Source of the DNA: a virus
Virus record (IMG/VR): IMGVR_UViG_3300030104_000580
Coordinates: 20,748-47,718 of that record
Length of the DNA: 26,971 nucleotides
Reading direction: 5' to 3' (one strand)
Part shown: piece after piece, positions 16,363 to 26,481 of the stretch
How positions within the stretch are numbered: position 1 is the stretch's first letter
Layout of the letters: each line of letters begins with the position of its first letter
Made by a program: the position numbers and the translations under genes
Notes under the pieces: generated by a model
Database searches by the model: none
Told to the model about the DNA's origin: nothing
Seen by the model: only the letters and a program-made list of their open reading frames with translations

Positions 16363-16595
16363 TGGAGATATTTATAATATATGCTGCATTAGCCTATGGG
16401 GAACTGACTAGTCTTGTGCAGTTCAAGGGTTCTACATTTAAGAGTATGGATGAGTGTACTGCTTATCTTAAGGACAATGAAATTAAAGTATGGGGTACAC
16501 TCAATCAGCATATAACGATGCACTATCCACAGGCTTCTGTGGCACATGTTGGATGTAGCCCATTGTCAGCGTTCAGAGAGGACACTAACGTCTAG
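16362..16595 (+). CDS. hypothetical protein with hydrophobic N terminus (77 aa)
   Basis: This is the last plus-strand gene, starting by TAATG overlap with mazG. Residues 2-13 (EIFIIYAALAYG) are hydrophobic and could be a short membrane anchor or weak signal peptide. The remainder is a small alpha/beta domain with Cys32 and Cys65, which could form a disulphide if exported. No family is recognised. Its end overlaps the end of the converging minus-strand gene by 11 bases, with no room for a terminator between the two operons. Confidence 0.65.
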   Translation: MEIFIIYAALAYGELTSLVQFKGSTFKSMDECTAYLKDNEIKVWGTLNQHITMHYPQASVAHVGCSPLSAFREDTNV

Positions 16596-19293
16596 CCATC
16601 AAGCCACCACGATTGAACTTGTCTGTTAATAGGAATACCATGCGTTTAAGGTCTTCATAACTAGTTTTAGGCATCTTCTGTGGGTTGTTGATAAACGTAT
16701 TATCTTTCATCATTTCTTTTAATTTTTTGTCTGATACTCCTCTAAGGCTAGACTTACCTGTATCTGTCTGGTACATTTTTGCTTTCATTTGCTCAAACAC
16801 CTGTGAAAGTGCATGCACGTTTTGTCTTTTCTCTCCCTCTGGTAAGAATTTTTTAAGTTTATCTACCGTTCTATCAGACTCACTAAAAAGAGTTTGAAGC
16901 AACGAGTCGTATGTACCTCTAGCACCATACTGTTCTGTAAATTGACCCAGAGCTTGTAGGTCTTTCATAAGATTTCTTAAATCTTCATAGGCAGCTGAAA
17001 CCACTTTAGCACCGCCTGAACCTTTTTTTAAATCACCTACGTAGCCAACACCCTGATTCTCTAAATGTGCTTCCAAATCTGTGTTCATTCTTGTATAAAA
17101 GTTGCTAATGTCATCTCTAACTTCATTAGCAAACTGTTGACCTACTATAATTCTATCCTCTAGTGACATTTTACCAAGATTTTTTAGCTCCTCTCTACCA
17201 ACAGAGTGTTCTAATCTGTCAGTTTTTTGAGATAATTGTCTTATGTTTTTTAGTTCTTCTGGTGTACTAAAGGCTATTTCAGCTTCCTTGTGTCTGGTTC
17301 TTGGTAAACCTAAAGCTGTCTCATCTTGCATATACTGTGCTTTATCTCTAGGAGCAGTATACTCCTCTCGTGTCATACCCCTAACCTTACTTCTAGGAAA
17401 TGGGGCTGATACTACGTTAGCAGGTACGAGGTCTCCGAAAGCCCTTTTTATAGATACAAGTGGGTCTCTTGATGTTGACAACATCTTTTTGCCTAACTCA
17501 GCATGTTTACCTGATGCGCCTTTTGAACCGCCTATACCTAACTCAACTCCTTCTTCAAAGTCTGTAAAGGGGGAAAATCCTTCTGCTTCTAATACCTCTG
17601 CTCTAGTCGTATCTCTATAGACTGTTCCTTTGTATCCCTCATAGGGTTGACTTACACCTGCTGACCCATGAAATATCCTCGGCATAGGTCTGTTCATTTC
17701 TTGTATCATTGTTCTACGTATAGATTTAGGCAATAGCTTTGCTATAGCTATTTGGTCAGCCTTATTTCTCATATCAAATTTTTTACCTGTAAAATCTATT
17801 GTGTTAATCCTATTAATTAAGTCTGTTTCATTTTCATTAAAAGACCCTTGTTTAAATCTGTCCATAAAATTTCGGACGGTGGATTTCTTTTCTCTTATCT
17901 TATCCACAAGAAATTTCTGGTCAGGTGTCATGTCCACGTCAATCTTGGCAAATGTGCCACCAATTACGTTTGATGTGTCAGATTTCTTCTGTATTACCTT
18001 TCCATTAATAGGGGGAGCATCATCAACTATTTTAACCCCTTCTGTATTTTGAAAATATTTCATGGTAGCTTTATAATCTGCGTCATCAAGAGGTGCATCT
18101 TTATAATGTTCTAATATATGAAATAATTGCTGTTTACTAACTTCATTATTTTGTTTACTTGCTAGTGCTTTAATAGCACTAGGAGAAGTAATACCCTTGT
18201 CTTGGTCATTTAGAATCTTTGTTATTTCGTCAATATTTTCAATTCCCTTTGATTTATCTAAATATTTCGTTTTAACTTGATAGGGAGTCTTGGCATCAAT
18301 ATTTTCAAATCCCTTTGTACTACCATACTGAGAACTAGGTTTAAGAGAATCAACAACATTTATATTTTTTATAGACATTTCAGAAAACGAGTCTTCAAGG
18401 TCTACAGAAGTCCAGTTTGGTTTACCCTTATTGAGTATTTCAGAAATCTGATTATTTGTAATTTCATTGTCTTGTGTTTTAGCCAGTTGTTCCATAGCAT
18501 TAGTTAACTTACCAGTTGTGCTTTTAGGTATCAAATCCCCTCCATCAACCTCAAAGTCATATCCAACAACCTTTATATTTTTTCCTGACAATTCAGTAAA
18601 AATATCTTCTACATCTACAGAAGTATAGCTCGGCTTATGTTTTTTTAATAATTGCTCTATCTGGTTATGTGAAATTTCATTGTTTTGTATTTTTGATTGT
18701 AATTGTATGGCATTAGTCAACTCGCTAGTGGTTGCTTCTTTTTTTGCTTTTTGAATGTCTAAGCCTTCGGGTGCTTCTACTTTTACAGACTTTCCTGATT
18801 TTACTAACTCGTCATCAAATGTTTCTGCAAAAGATTTTACTGCAGTTTTAGCAGGTTTTGCTCCATATTTTACTAAAGGTATTATACCCATTGCAGATAG
18901 AACAGAAAATGCACCACCCAGTCCCATCTTTCTTAAGTCGCCTTGGTCATAACCTGATTCTATCAATTCAAAAGCATAGGACAAGTCATCGGGTAATTCA
19001 TATGCAGCTTTTATTTCTCCTATCACAGGTGTAACATCGGCTATGCCCTTTACTGTGTTTATTGCTTCTTGTTTTATTTCTGCAGGAGTAAGTTTTGATA
19101 GAGATTTATAAACTTCTTCATTAGCCACACTCTCAAAATAATCAGTACCACTTCTCTCAGTTTTCTTTGCTTTTATCAATGCTTCTTCTGCACGAGATAA
19201 GACAGGCTCAAATTGATTAAAGTTATCTTCTGTGTCCGAATCTTCTAGCTCTAAGATTTGATTTTGTGCTGAGTTGGAATACAACATACCCAT
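16585..19293 (-). CDS. large virion-type protein with sigma70 region 1.1-like modules and candidate ADP-ribosyltransferase domain
   Basis: This 902-residue protein is the last gene of the virion cluster. Order of parts: acidic N terminus; a hydrophobic segment (about 82-152, with ADVTPVIGEIKAAYEL and GIIPLVKYGAKP) resembling pre-toxin domains of polymorphic toxins; three modules (192-246, 263-317, 372-428) like sigma70 region 1.1, the first two 30/55 identical; a candidate ART domain (537-690) with Arg560 in YRDTTR, STS at 606-608 and E670-x-E672 in KEAEIAF; then helical coiled segments to FNRGGLMARR. The likely role is an internal or ejected virion protein that modifies a host target, possibly RNA polymerase. 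Virion placement rests on gene neighbours; domain calls rest on motif reading. It couples to the preceding gene by TAATG. Confidence 0.75.
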   Translation of the reverse strand: MGMLYSNSAQNQILELEDSDTEDNFNQFEPVLSRAEEALIKAKKTERSGTDYFESVANEEVYKSLSKLTPAEIKQEAINTVKGIADVTPVIGEIKAAYELPDDLSYAFELIESGYDQGDLRKMGLGGAFSVLSAMGIIPLVKYGAKPAKTAVKSFAETFDDELVKSGKSVKVEAPEGLDIQKAKKEATTSELTNAIQLQSKIQNNEISHNQIEQLLKKHKPSYTSVDVEDIFTELSGKNIKVVGYDFEVDGGDLIPKSTTGKLTNAMEQLAKTQDNEITNNQISEILNKGKPNWTSVDLEDSFSEMSIKNINVVDSLKPSSQYGSTKGFENIDAKTPYQVKTKYLDKSKGIENIDEITKILNDQDKGITSPSAIKALASKQNNEVSKQQLFHILEHYKDAPLDDADYKATMKYFQNTEGVKIVDDAPPINGKVIQKKSDTSNVIGGTFAKIDVDMTPDQKFLVDKIREKKSTVRNFMDRFKQGSFNENETDLINRINTIDFTGKKFDMRNKADQIAIAKLLPKSIRRTMIQEMNRPMPRIFHGSAGVSQPYEGYKGTVYRDTTRAEVLEAEGFSPFTDFEEGVELGIGGSKGASGKHAELGKKMLSTSRDPLVSIKRAFGDLVPANVVSAPFPRSKVRGMTREEYTAPRDKAQYMQDETALGLPRTRHKEAEIAFSTPEELKNIRQLSQKTDRLEHSVGREELKNLGKMSLEDRIIVGQQFANEVRDDISNFYTRMNTDLEAHLENQGVGYVGDLKKGSGGAKVVSAAYEDLRNLMKDLQALGQFTEQYGARGTYDSLLQTLFSESDRTVDKLKKFLPEGEKRQNVHALSQVFEQMKAKMYQTDTGKSSLRGVSDKKLKEMMKDNTFINNPQKMPKTSYEDLKRMVFLLTDKFNRGGLMARR
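17224..17685 (-). other. candidate mono-ADP-ribosyltransferase domain (R-S-E type)
   Basis: Within the 902-residue protein, residues 537-690 show the three blocks of arginine-type ADP-ribosyltransferases in order: Arg560 in GTVYRDTTR, LSTSRDP with STS at 606-608, and KEAEIAF with E670-x-E672. The segment after the Arg (EVLEAEGFSPF) also matches the usual GF-x-P helix region. No structure or profile search was possible. Confidence 0.6.
18019..18714 (-). repeat. three tandem sigma70 region 1.1-like modules
   Basis: Modules at residues 192-246, 263-317 and 372-428 share the form Q-x-N-E-(I/V)-(S/T) then Q-(I/L)-x-x-(I/L)-L, an acidic D-x-E-D or DDAD helix start, and a closing strand (NIKVV, NINVV, GVKIVDDAP). 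Modules 1 and 2 align without gaps. The third ends GVKIVDDAP, very like the GI-x-V-x-(D/E)-E-A-P end of bacterial sigma70 region 1.1. The repeat is at protein level and the DNA copies are diverged. Confidence 0.6.
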
Positions 19294-22200
19294 TAGTCAC
19301 TCCCCTTTTGACCACGTATCTGTTTAGCTCTACTTAATGCCCATTGTAAAACATTTATTCTTTTACCACCTATTGTTACTGTTTTGTCTCTATCAGCAGA
19401 TACACTATTTTCACCACCTAACATCATTCTATATTCGGCATCTATTCTGTTCTTATCAACTCTATTTAATCTTTGCCATGTAATAGAATCTGTATAAGTG
19501 TAACTTGCACCTGCATCATAAGCTTCCATTTCTATTCTTGCGTCAGCTTTGTCTCTAACTTGAGCTATAACATTTTTAGCTGCAGCATCTAACATATCTC
19601 GCTTAATGGCTCTACCATCTGCTGTATAAGGTAGCTTTTTATACCTATCAGATTCCATAAGTGTATTCAGATTATCTTCTAGATTAAATGCCCCACCTCG
19701 TGTAGATAAAAGTTCTCTTATATATTTATCTCTAATTTCATTTTTATCTCTGCGGTATACATCAAATGGACGTAATCCAACCTTTGTCATTTCAGCTTGT
19801 AATTTATTCTTTGGCTTTCTTTTTGTTAAACCAAACATTTGTTTTTCTAATGGATTGACCTGCATTAAGTCACCAGTTTCAAATGCTGACCTTGCTCTTT
19901 CTGTATATTCACTAGCAAAGTTTTTAGGTAGAGAACGTGTACCTCTTGCATATAATATATCTAAGAAGTTCATCTCACCATTTCTTGTTTCAGGTATACC
20001 TCTAGCATCTTCATCAAATTGAGCATATACATCTCGTAAAGCAGATACAGGTAGGAGAAATGTATTCATTACATTACCTATGCCCTCCGCTAATATTTTA
20101 GTTCCTTTACCTCCTGCATCACGAGAAAATAAATCAGGCAAATCTTCTAGTAGGTTATCTAATGCATATAAGCCCATACCAGTTCTAAATGTAGAGCCTA
20201 GTGTTGCTTGTAATCCATCACGCATTATGGATACTTTATTTGCAGGTAAACCGCCATTCTGGTAACGTATCATAAAATCTGCTACAAGAACATGGGCAGC
20301 AAAAGGACCATACACAGGTCTACCATCTACTATATTTTCATTGTTATCTTTAAACTCATACCAGTTTGTAGTGTCTCCTTGTTTAAGTCTCCAGTTGTAT
20401 GCTGTCATAAACAACATAGCTCCTGTCATTTGCTTTGGCATCTTCTCTCTTAAATATTTTCTAACTGCCATTTCCTTGCCTAACTCGGCTACTGATTCTT
20501 TTGACAGGGGTTTATCCAATGGTAGTAGACCTAGCACTGGTGTGTGCTGATATATAAACTTCATTTGATTGGCTACATAACGTGGGAAAGGTAAGAATGA
20601 TGATATAAGAAAAGGGATATCTTGATGTGCTTTAATTGTGCCTTTAGCTAACTTACCAAAAAAGTTTGTACCTTTAAAGCTAGTCTGATATACAAAGTCA
20701 TACGCATCTTCTATAGACTCTCTTAATACATCTTGAGGTATTTTTTGTAAGTTATCAGTCTCTAACAAATCATGGAAATGTAATTTTTTCTGTTCTAACA
20801 AGTTACCATTTTCTTTATATAGATTATTTATAGTACCCTCTTGTTTAGCATCATCAATAATTTTACGGACATCAGCCCTACTATTACCACCCATACGAAA
20901 AATTCTATTAGCTAATAACTTTTCTCGTATATCATCAGTCATTTGAAAACCAATATCAGATATACGTCTTTTTAAAGAAGCAGATAATACTGCTCTTTTC
21001 CATATGTTATCAGACATGGTGTTAAGAAAATTTACTTTTCTACCAAGAGTAGCCAAAGCACCTTCTGCACCATACATAGCTTCTAAATCGGCAGCTTCTC
21101 TAAATAATTTTGCACTTAGTTCAGGGAAAGTTTCTTTGAATATTTGTTGCGTAATCATAGATTCATATGGATTTAACATATGTGCCGCTATATCAAATGT
21201 TCCATCAAAAGGATTTCTAGCACTTAATATATTATCAAAGGTACGTGTAGTTGCATCTATAGCAACTCTAAACCCACCATTAAGGTTGTTACGCATAGTT
21301 GTGGCAGGTTGAGAAGTCATCACTCCAAGTCTTAATCTATCTAAGTCTTTAAAAAAACCTGTTAGAGCATTTCTATTTTCTAATAATTTTTTAGCCCCAT
21401 CTGAATCTATACTAGATTTACCTACAGCGTTTAACTTATCTAAGTCGGCTAATAAACCATCAACTATTTTTTGAGAAAATTTGTAAGTTACTTGTTTAGG
21501 TGTTTCTATTTCTTTTAGTTTGCTTTTTTCACCTATTTCTCTAGATAATTTGCCCATTCCCCCAAGCACTCTACCTGCATCAGAAATTTCAGATAAAAAG
21601 AAATAGGAAAAAGTATCGTAGTTTAAATTGTGTTCTTCTAATATTTCTGAAACATCATCTAATAATCCTGTTTCGTTTCTTTCCATAGCCCTTTGTAAGG
21701 CACTTGTTACTCTTTCATTCTTTTGGGGTTTTATTTTTCGTTTAATTTGTATTGCTGCAGCAGTTATATTGTCCATAACTTCTACAGGTAATCCAAATTC
21801 TAATGTATCTGAAGTAGAGGATGTTTGTTTAAACAGTCTACCCTTTCTAACTAACTCAGGATTAAGTGACTTTAGTGTATCTTTAACTTCTGAAACTTCT
21901 TTTACACTTGAATCACGTATAACAATTTTACTATTTTCTCTAGCTTTTGTAGCTTTTTCTGCTGCTATAAATTGTTGTGCTACAAACTTTTCATTTGCTT
22001 TTTTAGCCGCTAATGTTTGTGGTATACTTACTAGAGGAAAATGAACTAGCCCTGCTGTAACTGCAGACGTTGCACCATGTACCATAGGTCTAACTCCTGT
22101 TGCTCTGTCCTGTAGACGTGTCTCTACTCTTGCCTGTTCTTGAACAGCACCCTGACCAAAACCTATAGCACCTTCAACTGCCATAGCTTTGGTTGAACCT

Positions 22201-22640
22201 TTAAGGGCTTCACTTAATATTTTTCTAGTTGCTATCTTTGCACCTTGCACTCCTGCAAGTGCTGCCAGTTTTCCTGAACCACCTGTTGCTATCCCTAAAT
22301 AGGTAGAGGGTGCGGTAGCAAGACCTTGCATATAGTCAACTGCACCAGTTATACCCACACCTTCATCTATTTTATCAAAGGCATCAATAAGACTGCCAAA
22401 GCGTAGTTTACCTTCTATGTTTGCATTTTGAGCATACTCTAAATCACGTATAGTGGTTACTTCATTCACGTTGTGAAATCGCATATGTTGCATAAAAGCA
22501 TCATAGGATTCCTCTGCGGTCATAGGCTCTGTAACACCTTTACGCTCACGTAAAAAGGCTTCTACATCATCTATAAACTCTACGTTGTTAAGTAAATCTT
22601 CTTTTTTTATTTCTTCTGCTTGACTGTAACTGCGGAACAT
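19293..22640 (-). CDS. large putative internal virion / ejection protein (1115 aa)
   Basis: The N terminus (FIDDVEAFLRER, ESYDAFMQHMRFHNVNEVT, IRDLEYAQNA) resembles conserved large structural proteins of marine phages. Residues 92-212 are Gly/Ala-rich and hydrophobic (GVGITGAVDYMQGLATAPST, GAIGFGQGAVQEQARVET), as expected of a protein that inserts into or crosses membranes during DNA ejection. The centre holds TSQPATTMRNNLNGGFRVA and many amphipathic helices, and the C-terminal third is charged. No catalytic motif was recognised, so lysozyme or protease activity cannot be claimed. It may be a polyvalent protein delivered with the genome. TAATG junctions at both ends couple it to its neighbours. 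Confidence 0.7.
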   Translation of the reverse strand: MFRSYSQAEEIKKEDLLNNVEFIDDVEAFLRERKGVTEPMTAEESYDAFMQHMRFHNVNEVTTIRDLEYAQNANIEGKLRFGSLIDAFDKIDEGVGITGAVDYMQGLATAPSTYLGIATGGSGKLAALAGVQGAKIATRKILSEALKGSTKAMAVEGAIGFGQGAVQEQARVETRLQDRATGVRPMVHGATSAVTAGLVHFPLVSIPQTLAAKKANEKFVAQQFIAAEKATKARENSKIVIRDSSVKEVSEVKDTLKSLNPELVRKGRLFKQTSSTSDTLEFGLPVEVMDNITAAAIQIKRKIKPQKNERVTSALQRAMERNETGLLDDVSEILEEHNLNYDTFSYFFLSEISDAGRVLGGMGKLSREIGEKSKLKEIETPKQVTYKFSQKIVDGLLADLDKLNAVGKSSIDSDGAKKLLENRNALTGFFKDLDRLRLGVMTSQPATTMRNNLNGGFRVAIDATTRTFDNILSARNPFDGTFDIAAHMLNPYESMITQQIFKETFPELSAKLFREAADLEAMYGAEGALATLGRKVNFLNTMSDNIWKRAVLSASLKRRISDIGFQMTDDIREKLLANRIFRMGGNSRADVRKIIDDAKQEGTINNLYKENGNLLEQKKLHFHDLLETDNLQKIPQDVLRESIEDAYDFVYQTSFKGTNFFGKLAKGTIKAHQDIPFLISSFLPFPRYVANQMKFIYQHTPVLGLLPLDKPLSKESVAELGKEMAVRKYLREKMPKQMTGAMLFMTAYNWRLKQGDTTNWYEFKDNNENIVDGRPVYGPFAAHVLVADFMIRYQNGGLPANKVSIMRDGLQATLGSTFRTGMGLYALDNLLEDLPDLFSRDAGGKGTKILAEGIGNVMNTFLLPVSALRDVYAQFDEDARGIPETRNGEMNFLDILYARGTRSLPKNFASEYTERARSAFETGDLMQVNPLEKQMFGLTKRKPKNKLQAEMTKVGLRPFDVYRRDKNEIRDKYIRELLSTRGGAFNLEDNLNTLMESDRYKKLPYTADGRAIKRDMLDAAAKNVIAQVRDKADARIEMEAYDAGASYTYTDSITWQRLNRVDKNRIDAEYRMMLGGENSVSADRDKTVTIGGKRINVLQWALSRAKQIRGQKGSD

Positions 22641-23905
22641 TAATAGTCTCCTACTGTATAACCCTCATGTATAGGTGAAGATGTATTAACACTCTTCTTT
22701 ATTCTGCTTATTTTTAAATTTTTATTGTACTCTGCTAGAGCCGCATCCAAGTAAGATTTATCATCAGAAAGTGTTTTACCTTCAGACTTTTCATGTTCTT
22801 TTAATAACTTAGCATAATTTTTTCTCCAAGTTTCTCCCTTTACATTAGCTCCACCATCAACCAACAGTTTTATCGCATTTGCCATATCAATTTGTATAAC
22901 AGCAGTATCTCTATTCTCATTCCCTTTGGGTGGTTTGGTAGGCTTAAGCAGAGTAGAAACTTCCGTATGTATTTTTCGTAAATTTGCACCAGAAATTTTA
23001 CCATCCTTGTCTTGAAGCTCTACAAATCTTTTAGAAAAAAGTTCTCTAATTTTAATAGTTGATGCATTTTCATTGGCTTCTGTTATTTCTGTAGGTATGT
23101 TAAAATTAGTAGCTCGTTCACCAGTATCGGTTATATATGTACTAAACTCTGCACCTTCAATTAAGTCTGCAGCAAGTTTAAATGTTTCAGACATAGCGGA
23201 ATTTCTTGTAATAGTTCCTTTGTCTGTTTTCAGTTCATCTATTGTCTTAATAACCGCTGCTTCTTCTAAACCAGAAGCTAAATTAATAGTACCTGTAAAA
23301 GGCAGGTCTGTTGGAGTAACACTACCAGTAGCATATTGTCTAAGATTAGCTACTGAACCTTTACCTGATATAGATTCTATTGCTTCTATTCTTTTCTTAG
23401 CCAGTTTATTCATATTAGGATTAAACAATTTGTCAAATGTGATACCCTTTGATTGTCCTGAATCTGCAAACGCATCACTTAAAGACATACCACCAGACAC
23501 TTTACCAACAACACTGTTAATCATTTCATCCATTGTCATACCACTAGATTCGTAGTTCTCACCCATGTTAACAATATTACCGATGTCATAGCCCACAGCA
23601 GCTTGTGTTTCAGCACTCATGTTGTGGTATTTTTTAATCTGTGCTAACACCTCTTCTCCACGTCCTTGTTCAAGAGCTACACCTATTTGGTCAACACTTA
23701 AGTACGGCTTTAATGCTCTAGCAAGTTTTCTAGTAGCTTTTTTATTAGCTACATGTGAATCCCAGTTAGCACTTCCTTTAGCTTCCCACTTAGCCATAGC
23801 ATCATCTATCAGCTTGTTGGCTCTTTTTCTTTCATCGTCCATGTATCTTGAGCCTTCAGCTGCAAAACCACCCAACGCACTTCCTAAATGTAAACCCAAT
23901 ACCAT
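22640..23905 (-). CDS. putative virion protein (421 aa)
   Basis: I do not recognise a family. The N terminus is Gly/Ala-rich and hydrophobic (LGLHLGSALGGFAAEG), followed by a long charged helix (DDERKRANKLIDDAMAKWEA). The middle is mixed alpha/beta and the C terminus is basic and helical, ending with IHEGYTVGDY. Its position in a TAATG-coupled series between other large virion-type proteins suggests a component of the internal core or ejection complex. No cysteine cluster and no enzymatic motif are present. Confidence 0.65.
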   Translation of the reverse strand: MVLGLHLGSALGGFAAEGSRYMDDERKRANKLIDDAMAKWEAKGSANWDSHVANKKATRKLARALKPYLSVDQIGVALEQGRGEEVLAQIKKYHNMSAETQAAVGYDIGNIVNMGENYESSGMTMDEMINSVVGKVSGGMSLSDAFADSGQSKGITFDKLFNPNMNKLAKKRIEAIESISGKGSVANLRQYATGSVTPTDLPFTGTINLASGLEEAAVIKTIDELKTDKGTITRNSAMSETFKLAADLIEGAEFSTYITDTGERATNFNIPTEITEANENASTIKIRELFSKRFVELQDKDGKISGANLRKIHTEVSTLLKPTKPPKGNENRDTAVIQIDMANAIKLLVDGGANVKGETWRKNYAKLLKEHEKSEGKTLSDDKSYLDAALAEYNKNLKISRIKKSVNTSSPIHEGYTVGDY

Positions 23906-24396
23906 TACATTGCTCTCCTTGCCATTAATCCTTTAGGTTCTTCTTCTACCTCTGGTTCTATTTCTATGCTGTCCATTTCTGGTTGTTTTTCTTCTTTTAA
24001 AGCATATGTTATTTCTGCTCTACTTGCACTTTTTTTAGCATCATTATTAGAAAATTTAACATGTTCAACACCAACTTTTTCTGCCATACTAGATATTACT
24101 TCTGTTAATGCAGGAGCAATAACAATACCTACATCTAAACTGTGAACACCCTCCATAACACCGCCTTGTTGTAGTATATCTACAAGTGTATCAACAGGAA
24201 CTCCGTTGTCTAATATGTCTAACAGTTCGTTAGCTCTTTCTGGTCTGGTTATTCTGTTAACATAAAATGCCAATGCATCATCGGGACTGCTATACCTAGC
24301 AGGTTTCTGCCAAGGTCTATCACCTAAAGGTGCAGTCAGCGACTGACCGGGAATAGGCGCATCAAATGGTACGTTATCTCTATCTTGCTTGACCAT
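23905..24396 (-). CDS. putative virion-associated protein (163 aa)
   Basis: This acidic protein has a Pro-rich N terminus (FDAPIPGQSLTAPLGDRPWQ), a helical centre with RANELLDILDNGVPVDTLVD, a hydrophobic helix (GIVIAPALTEVISSMAEKVG), then a glutamate-rich stretch (EIEPEVEEEP) and the end KGLMARRAM. The final GLMARR is shared with the last residues of the 902-residue protein. Similar small proteins sit among virion genes in other marine phages, with no assigned role. Stop and start overlap the downstream gene by TAATG. AAAGG precedes its ATG inside the end of the upstream gene (17-base overlap). Confidence 0.65.
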   Translation of the reverse strand: MVKQDRDNVPFDAPIPGQSLTAPLGDRPWQKPARYSSPDDALAFYVNRITRPERANELLDILDNGVPVDTLVDILQQGGVMEGVHSLDVGIVIAPALTEVISSMAEKVGVEHVKFSNNDAKKSASRAEITYALKEEKQPEMDSIEIEPEVEEEPKGLMARRAM

Positions 24397-24585: not shown

Positions 24586-26481
24586 CTATTTACCAAGAAA
24601 GTTTTCTAATATTCTAAATGCAAATCCACCAACAGCCCTACTGTTTTCTGCATCTCTTTGTAGCTCTGCAGATGTTATATTTGCATCTGCCTGTATTCTA
24701 GCTGTTGCTATTTTAGTTTGTCTATCTAAATCATTATCGGCAGCTTCCCATGCAAACTCCATAGCATCAGAATAATACTGCCACAAATTATCGTATGCGG
24801 TTTTGCTCATGTCAAGAACATTTGTTGCATTTATTTCGTTAGCACGATTAATGGCTGCAGTATCTGCTGTAGCTATCTGTCTTCTCCACTGTGCATTTGC
24901 TTGTGCAATCACAGTTTGATTCTGTGCATTGAACTGGTCACGTTGGTTAGCCACCTCAGTATTAAATCTAGCGATTGTATTAGCTTGTCCTGCATTGTAC
25001 TGGTTCTGTGCATTGGCTTGTGTTGCATTAAATTGTGATACATTGTTAGCAAGGTTAGCAAAGAATTGGTCGGTTTGATTTTGGCTAGATGAGTTAAACT
25101 GTCTGGCTGCATTTTCTGCGGCTTGGTCTGTAAATAAAGCTTGTACTCTCTGCTGTGTCTTAAATATATCTGTCTGCTGTCTGTTGGACAGATTAGCCAT
25201 ATCAACCTGTAAAAAGTTTTGTGCATTCTGTACGGCAGCCTGTTGTCTATTGGATAAGTTTGCCATATCTAAGTTTGCTAATGCACCTGCTTCTGCCATA
25301 AGTAAAGCTTGTCTATTACTTAAATTATTTAACTCCATAGTATTAGCAATACGACTATTCTCTAACTGAACTTGTGTTTCATGTGTAAAGTTCATATTAG
25401 CTATATCACCTATACGTGCAGAGTTTTGTACTTTTGCTTGAAACGCTTGGTCAAACTCCATGCCTAAAAACTTAGCACGCTGTTCTGCTGCAAGCATAGC
25501 TCTCTGTTGTCTATTAGATAAGTTTTGTGCTTCAAAAGATGCTTGTGTCTGTGCATCAGCAGACGCTATTGGTAGTGCAGACTCTAAGGCTGCCTGTACC
25601 ATTGCCTGTCCTGCTATACTAGATGCACCCATACCTCTGGCTTGCATCTGAGCCATAACACCTCTTAATGCTCCTGCCGCCCAAGGTGGCGGATTAGTCG
25701 CATCAAAGTCGGCTGTAAGCTCTGCTAGTTGTCCTCTAACTGTAGCTTTCTCTGAAGGTGTTGCTGTTGCGGCTTGAATTTGTTCTGTAAACTTAGATGC
25801 TTTTTCTGCATTAGCTACACCAGTTATAATCTCACCGTCTTTTATTTCTCGTTGTACAGGATTGTCTATAAGTATACCAGTACCTTGAGCAGCATCTAAA
25901 TCAGACACAGAAGACTTAAGAGTCTCTTCGGCTTCTATTTCTAATCTAGGGTCATCGGGATTTGCTTGAGCAGCATTAAGTGCAGTTACAACTTCATCAA
26001 CTTCAGGCTTAACTTTATCAGGTGTTACAGTAGATATCGGAGTTTGTGTTACATCATCCGCTTTTTCTGTTTGTGCAAAATAGGTTTCAGACTTTCTGTC
26101 ACCAGTAAGCTGTCCAGTTGTTGTTGGTATATATGCACCTGCTTCATCACGAGTAAGTTCAGGGTCAACTTTAGCACCTGTTGGTAATTTAGGAGCTTGC
26201 ATTCTTTCTGCTGTAATGTCTGCTATGGGTGCAGAAGGATTCACTCCTGTTGTGTCATCTGGTTCTTTTTTAGGTGTACCACCCTCTTGCATTTTAACAA
26301 TACCACCTCTTGCCATTTGACGTGCTACGTCTTGATAACGCATCATCTCTGATTGTCTGTCGGGATTGTCCTGTAAGAACTTTTGAAAATCTTTTATGTT
26401 TCCTTGAAAACCCATAGCATTGGCTATCTTCTCCATGCCTGAAGGTTTAAATCCTTGAAACTGTTGTGGCTGTTGTATCAT
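24586..26481 (-). CDS. virion-type protein with 22/11-residue Gln/Asn-rich repeats (631 aa)
   Basis: Three parts are visible. Residues 1-70 are Gln/Met-rich and contain VARQMARGGIVKMQEGG. Residues 70-270 are acidic, Pro/Thr-rich and probably flexible. Residues 270-631 are almost all helical, with NLSNRQ repeated at 320, 386, 408 and 430 and a phenylalanine or tyrosine repeat every 11 residues from 461 to 516. The C terminus (GGFAFRILENFLGK) is a short hydrophobic helix. The helical repeat design suggests an internal core protein resembling T7 gp14 or gp15 in role, or a long fibrous element. No enzyme motif is present. It starts by TAATG overlap with the small membrane protein gene. Confidence 0.7.
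   Translation of the reverse strand: MIQQPQQFQGFKPSGMEKIANAMGFQGNIKDFQKFLQDNPDRQSEMMRYQDVARQMARGGIVKMQEGGTPKKEPDDTTGVNPSAPIADITAERMQAPKLPTGAKVDPELTRDEAGAYIPTTTGQLTGDRKSETYFAQTEKADDVTQTPISTVTPDKVKPEVDEVVTALNAAQANPDDPRLEIEAEETLKSSVSDLDAAQGTGILIDNPVQREIKDGEIITGVANAEKASKFTEQIQAATATPSEKATVRGQLAELTADFDATNPPPWAAGALRGVMAQMQARGMGASSIAGQAMVQAALESALPIASADAQTQASFEAQNLSNRQQRAMLAAEQRAKFLGMEFDQAFQAKVQNSARIGDIANMNFTHETQVQLENSRIANTMELNNLSNRQALLMAEAGALANLDMANLSNRQQAAVQNAQNFLQVDMANLSNRQQTDIFKTQQRVQALFTDQAAENAARQFNSSSQNQTDQFFANLANNVSQFNATQANAQNQYNAGQANTIARFNTEVANQRDQFNAQNQTVIAQANAQWRRQIATADTAAINRANEINATNVLDMSKTAYDNLWQYYSDAMEFAWEAADNDLDRQTKIATARIQADANITSAELQRDAENSRAVGGFAFRILENFLGK
24871..25533 (-). repeat. 22- and 11-residue protein repeats
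   Basis: NLSNRQ occurs at residues 320, 386, 408 and 430, spaced 66, 22 and 22, so two further degenerate copies fit at 342 and 364 (NFTHETQ at 364). Next come (Q/R)(F/Y) pairs at 461, 472, 483, 494, 505 and 516, exactly every 11 residues. Twenty-two is two hendecads, so one continuous helical repeat is likely. Confidence 0.8.

Follow-up and report, generated by a model that had tools for sequence, protein, structure and literature searches.

The window analyzed here, a stretch of 26,971 nucleotides from a 47.7-kb virus record, encodes a 631-aa protein with a long region of 11-residue units, or hendecads (hereafter, the rod protein; Table 1). Judged from its sequence, the phage belongs with the HMO-2011-type group, an abundant type of marine virus whose members are short-tailed (PMC9038755). 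The roseophage counterparts of the rod protein (e.g., those of CRP-1, -2, -9, -13, -207 and -345) share 41–55% identity with it, and remoter relatives are found in pelagiphages, Rhizobium and Sinorhizobium phages, Vibrio CHOED, Aeromonas phages and Slicky01. Nearly all are annotated as hypothetical. A scan of viral contigs returned 427 related stretches, of which 80 were retained, and four extra queries brought in distant ones. Pfam and PHROGs gave zero matches for the window protein and for its HMO-2011 homologue, as did a PDB sequence search with the family profile.

Table 1 Features of the rod protein, its gene and the neighboring genes in the window.
Feature	Window position	Strand	Remarks
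Rod protein, 631 aa	24586..26481	(-)	Homologue of HMO-2011 gp25 (57% identity, annotated hypothetical)
Conserved N-terminal helical head, residues 1-68, ending in MARGGIVKMQEGG	26278..26481	(-)	Recurs among homologues with a rod of the window's length (class 0)
Variable linker, residues 69-257	25711..26277	(-)	Extra domains in its place in relatives
N-anchor, residues 258-313, Ala/Gly-rich helical hairpin with RGMGASS turn	25543..25710	(-)	HMM, 212 ORFs
Hendecad rod, residues 309-545	24847..25557	(-)	~21 hendecads; Asn marks register position 0
Rod N-half, residues 309-450, NLSNRQ zone	25132..25557	(-)	22-residue subperiod, two opposite apolar stripes
Four NLSNRQ copies, in order of residue number	25507-25524, 25309-25326, 25243-25260, 25177-25194	(-)	
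Rod C-half, residues 451-545	24847..25131	(-)	Aromatic once per 11 residues
C-anchor and C-terminal helix, residues 526-631, Gly/Ala-rich amphipathic end	24589..24906	(-)	HMM, 213 ORFs
163-aa protein	23905..24396	(-)	Found with the rod gene across all rod-length classes
421-aa protein	22640..23905	(-)	Same cassette
1115-aa protein	19293..22640	(-)	Same cassette
902-aa protein, downstream of the 1115-aa gene	16585-19293		No family match above cut-off
Met-Ala-Arg motif in the 631-, 163- and 902-aa proteins	26278-26316, 23905-23930, 16585-16620		

The rod gene cassette and domains fused in relatives

The rod gene is the first of a conserved cassette, followed by the genes for the 163-, 421- and 1115-aa proteins. 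A homologue of the 163-aa protein was found at nearly all loci of each rod-length class (94/103, 37/40, 19/21, 16/17 and so on). One of the 45 homologues of the 1115-aa protein matched a PHROG annotated as internal virion protein (5.5e-10), and an AlphaFold2 model of the 1115-aa protein (pTM 0.62) had no PDB match above chance. Matches of the 421-aa family profile to TAL effectors contained no individually significant stretch and were set aside as artefacts produced by a poor alignment (12% mean column identity).

Genes for peptidoglycan-related proteins are inserted into the cassette in some relatives. Between the rod gene and the 163-aa homologue, CRP-603 encodes a cell-wall hydrolase (Hydrolase_2; L096:4531-5472) and CRP-207 a LysM protein with a weak GH19 match (L095:4922-6538). 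In the pelagiphage HTVC115P, the rod gene is directly followed by one for a HlyC-type lysine acyltransferase (PF02794, 1e-15; L086:3994-4443), possibly a modifier of a cassette protein. In addition, three cassette proteins share a Met-Ala-Arg motif, which takes the form QMARGGIVKMQEGG in the 631-aa protein (residues 56-68) and ends the 163-aa protein as GLMARRAM and the 902-aa protein as FNRGGLMARR. It is possibly a packaging or cleavage signal.

The rod protein itself carries additional domains in some phages. LysM or long insertions lie at the linker region in relatives, and in the CRP-235-type relatives the rod protein has LysM on its N-terminus and Peptidase_S74 on its C-terminus. The C-terminal Peptidase_S74 was detected in three Pfam-scanned relatives (E 1e-11 to 3e-9) and, with a local profile, in 30 of 209 homologues (27 with rods 66 residues shorter than the window's, two of class 0 and one with a rod 220 residues longer); Pfam did not detect it in the window protein. 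The CRP-235 C-terminus matched a PHROG named DNA ejection protein, but via its S74 region. A long relative (L049:485-3694) has EF-hand-like matches under the Pfam cut-off in its N-terminal extension.

Periodicity and predicted fold of the rod

The first-pass annotation had described NLSNRQ repeats and regularly spaced aromatics that fit a single hendecad register. The NLSNRQ positions (residues 320, 386, 408 and 430) were exact. The aromatic positions, given as 461, 472 and onward to 516, were off by one and directly precede the actual aromatics, i.e., F462, F473, F484, Y495, F506 and F517. The single register holds: residue number modulo 11 is 1 for the Asn that opens each NLSNRQ and 0 for all six aromatics. 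Within residues 301-540, identity autocorrelation was highest at lag 22 (0.239 versus a base of 0.104), a peak that none of 3000 shuffles matched when all lags from 2 to 60 were considered, and Z was 5.4, 6.8 and 3.9 at lags 11, 22 and 33, respectively. One register holds six of the eight aromatics in residues 450-530, which was equaled by one of 20,000 random placements. The 11/22-residue periodicity is thus real and not due to chance. TRF detected no DNA-level tandem repeat in the window, indicating that the periodicity is a protein-level pattern, and DNA slippage was rejected as its immediate cause there. The described richness in Gln and Asn and low charge were also borne out (73 N+Q, 18 K+R and 19 D+E in 238 rod residues).

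Far from being lost in homologues, the periodicity is kept. Asn was most frequent at one shared register position in all 76 representatives, where it occupies 66% of hendecads compared with an average of 31% at the runner-up position; another position was richer in Asn in 151 of 1231 six-hendecad windows. The rods of these representatives contain no proline in 17,949 residues, 29% Asn+Gln and few Lys. The hydropathy period was 98 degrees (3.67 residues) in most homologues examined, and charge is clustered at register positions 4 and 8. Two apolar stripes ~180 degrees apart run along the N-half of the rod (second harmonic 2.08, first 1.11), and a single stripe set by the aromatics dominates the C-half (1.88 and 2.08). 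From the sequence, the two N-half stripes would suit a helix with neighbors on both sides, as in a tube.

An AlphaFold2 model of the window protein (81 sequences; mean pLDDT 68) placed helices at residues 266-281, 288-339, 345-364, 367-385, 389-423 and 432-630, the last as one unbroken helix. Confidence was poor at ~360-430 (pLDDT about 40-55) and reached a pLDDT of 91-94 at residues ~11-50 in the N-terminal head. The model is mostly helix rather than non-helical, and the predicted helix over nearly all of residues 288-630, together with the absence of proline, supports the proposed hendecad helical rod. Structure searches of the PDB returned generic long-helix matches only, both with Foldseek (best E 0.33) and with VIA (best Z 6.7 at 12.4 A rmsd), and BFVD returned a few uncharacterised phage proteins and was otherwise uninformative. 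The rod protein has no canonical transmembrane segment; the best 19-residue mean hydropathy was 1.02 at the N-anchor and 0.29 at the C-tail.

Rod length varies in steps of 11 residues

Rod length was measured as the distance between two HMM-located anchors (residues 258-313 and 526-600), which lie outside the repeat or at its ends, so that the measurement is independent of the repeat. In 208 of the 209 homologues holding both anchors, the difference in rod length from the window protein was exactly divisible by 11, giving 11 length classes (-88, -77, -66, -55, -44, -11, 0, +88, +110, +220 and +440 residues). The sole exception is +89 (L108:5041-7107), in which a single additional residue, possibly a sequencing error, immediately precedes the WRR motif where the rod ends. 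After clustering at 70% identity, all 76 clusters differed by multiples of 11. As controls, the flanks were not quantised: the N-terminal flank had 117 distinct lengths among 202 homologues and the C-terminal flank 38, each covering all residues modulo 11. Pairwise alignments of distant relatives contained gaps of 11, 22 and 44, among others. The length class switches at least 17 times, a rough lower bound, on a tree built from the anchors (~130 columns).

The first-pass annotation had taken the exact spacing to imply strong length constraint. This holds within the window's own group: the 76 distinct class 0 homologues, including HMO-2011 gp25, are 68–91% identical over residues 245-560 and have no indel in these 316 residues. 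It does not hold for the family, which spans -88 to +440, nearly all in steps of 11. What is conserved is the register, and absolute length is not.

At the standard 1.5 A per residue of helix, inter-anchor rods of ~158 to 680 residues would measure 24 to 102 nm as one straight helix. The longest, straightened (~102 nm), exceeds the head of a 55-kb phage. The portals of phages with +110, +220 and +440 rods are 67–78% identical to that of HMO-2011 (they are absent from two fragments), and the larger records with such rods are 52–59 kb, versus 55 kb for HMO-2011. With portals and genome sizes so similar, the longest rods could hardly be straight within the head. The longest rod has internal super-repeats of 110 residues, i.e., ten hendecads (L168, residues ~560-1240).

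Rod length is not tied to the host. CRP-207 (-11) and CRP-235/CRP-3 (-66) share host FZCC0040 and differ by 55 residues, and the Pelagibacter phages HTVC033P (-66) and HTVC104P/HTVC115P (+88) are 154 residues apart. On these differences, the idea that rod length gauges the width of the host periplasm was rejected; they speak against a strict envelope ruler and in favor of the register alone being conserved.

Known systems and candidate roles of the rod protein

Hendecads, aromatic markers and variable unit numbers are already known from phage DNA-delivery proteins. In siphophages, the tape-measure proteins contain varying numbers of 11-residue units, each marked by a W or F (Belcaid et al. 2011, PMC3271669). 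The rod protein resembles them as a long protein of a tailed phage that is predicted to be helical, with an aromatic per unit and a unit number that varies among relatives, and the quantised 11-residue units are present in 208 of the 209 members of the rod family. Unlike them, the rod is rich in N and Q and occurs in a short-tailed phage group (PMC9038755), and its HMO-2011 homologue follows fiber genes, with no tail-tube or tail-chaperone genes annotated nearby; going by that annotation, the gene is not part of a siphophage tail module. What is added here is the occurrence of such repeats in short-tailed marine phages, in a family without a match in the libraries queried with the window protein, and a near-perfect 11-residue quantisation over a wide range of lengths.

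Ejected proteins of other phages offer further parallels. The DNA pilot protein H of phiX174 forms a parallel decameric tube, lined with N, Q and R, that carries DNA across the envelope; each chain has three Gln-rich hendecads (including QKELTKMQLDN and QKEIAEMQNET) followed by heptads (PMC7354561). The likeness, compared by description, lies in hendecads within Gln-rich helices. In contrast to the window protein, H has only three hendecads and belongs to a tail-less ssDNA phage, and the membrane segments at both of its ends have no counterpart in the rod protein, on the hydropathy given above. The rod sequence has the two stripes and Gln-rich faces, from which a tube could be proposed. In T7, gp14, gp15 and gp16 form an ejected core, and after ejection gp14 is a hexamer of antiparallel helical hairpins in an extended channel (PMC11784390). 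The rod gene resembles that of gp14 in coming first in a cassette that ends with a very large protein, a positional analogy only, and both proteins have Ala/Gly-rich segments and a G-x-SS hairpin turn (RGMGASS versus MLEGSS in T7). Unlike the rod protein, gp14 is 196 aa long and has no hendecads. The two had an hhalign probability of <1%, with only six gp14 sequences used, and T7 gp14, gp15, gp16 and gp17 profiles showed zero similarity to the three cassette families. The T7 likeness is only a lead. P22 offers a parallel by description: its gp7, gp16 and gp20 are ejected proteins that build a trans-periplasmic conduit (PMC8402733). The HMO-2011 coat protein is annotated as P22-like.

We favor, at about an even chance, a virion protein that is ejected and whose helices build a rod or tube within the DNA conduit; the channel or core spool for ejection suggested by the first-pass annotation is plausible from gene context. 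The rod protein would be part of the virion, encoded in an ejection cassette, with a long hendecad alpha-helix over its C-terminal two thirds, flanked by the Ala/Gly-rich hairpin and the Gly/Ala-rich C-terminal helix. Parallel copies would associate along the apolar stripes to give a rod or tube whose faces are Gln/Asn-rich, be stored inside the particle, probably not fully extended, and upon ejection become part of a conduit taking DNA across the cell envelope. Only indels of whole hendecads, each three helical turns, would be tolerated, since any other would put the stripes of neighboring chains out of phase. The quantised lengths, proline-free rod, AlphaFold2 helix and two N-half stripes count in favor of this explanation, as do the cassette position, the match to the internal virion protein PHROG, the LysM fusion and the nearby peptidoglycan enzymes. 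Against it count the lack of similarity to T7 gp14, gp15 or gp16, of a clear structural match and of a transmembrane segment, a longest rod (~680 residues, ~102 nm if straight) that exceeds an envelope, and the independence of rod length from host. A tape-measure-like version, in which a parallel-hendecad tube of quantised length (24 to ~100 nm) is stored coiled in the head and extends only on ejection, we regard as doubtful.

The main rival, possible yet clearly less probable than an ejected conduit, is a trimeric fiber or tail needle, i.e., three parallel helices forming a straight or right-handed rod on the tail or plugging it, which in some relatives would rely on S74 as a cleavable chaperone of trimerisation. 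In the tailspikes and MyRF covered by PMC8326128, S74 domains are trimeric, and their presence at the C-terminus of 30 of 209 homologues recalls S74-chaperoned tailspikes and fibers; in favoring trimers, they also argue against a wide tube. The length of a fiber is free to vary, in keeping with rods of ~24 to 102 nm among phages whose portals are closely similar and whose genomes are 52–59 kb, and tail-fiber genes lie upstream in HMO-2011. However, the window protein lacks S74 and has no receptor-binding domain after its rod, which is alpha-helical by prediction, unlike such tailspikes and fibers. The N-terminal linker varies while the rod and C-terminus are conserved, the opposite of a usual fiber, and the two opposite N-half stripes misfit a simple three-stranded core. 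An ejected protein would account at least equally well for the N-terminal LysM and the nearby peptidoglycan enzymes. They would be left without a reason if the protein were instead a head-organising internal core or scaffold, retained within or near the portal, whose hendecads served solely for bundle packing. We consider this quite unlikely, even though the conserved cassette encodes other large uncharacterised, probably internal, proteins, and the MARGG/GLMARR motif of three cassette proteins could be a packaging signal.

Two further explanations concern the repeat itself. Amphipathic 11-residue repeats lie flat on membranes in alpha-synuclein, perilipins and apolipoproteins. The rod has the identical period and two apolar stripes of moderate strength, but its 29% Asn+Gln, few Lys and low hydropathy make a membrane-lying helix very improbable. 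We give equally little credence to neutral expansion, by which unequal exchange of 33-bp units would quantise the lengths without structural selection. The 110-residue super-repeats of the longest rod and the steps of 110, 220 and 440 residues speak for it; against it, the window has no DNA-level tandem repeat, deletions are likewise multiples of 11, and the window's class is gap-free over 316 residues in 76 distinct homologues. Such expansion may nevertheless supply the raw length variation.

The multiple-of-11 rule offers a clean genetic test: it predicts tolerance of 11- or 22-residue deletions but not of 10- or 12-residue ones. A rod that obeys it could serve as a marker for the ejection cassette in unannotated phages, and phages whose portals are closely similar but whose rods naturally range from ~158 to 680 residues provide a way to ask what role rod length plays.
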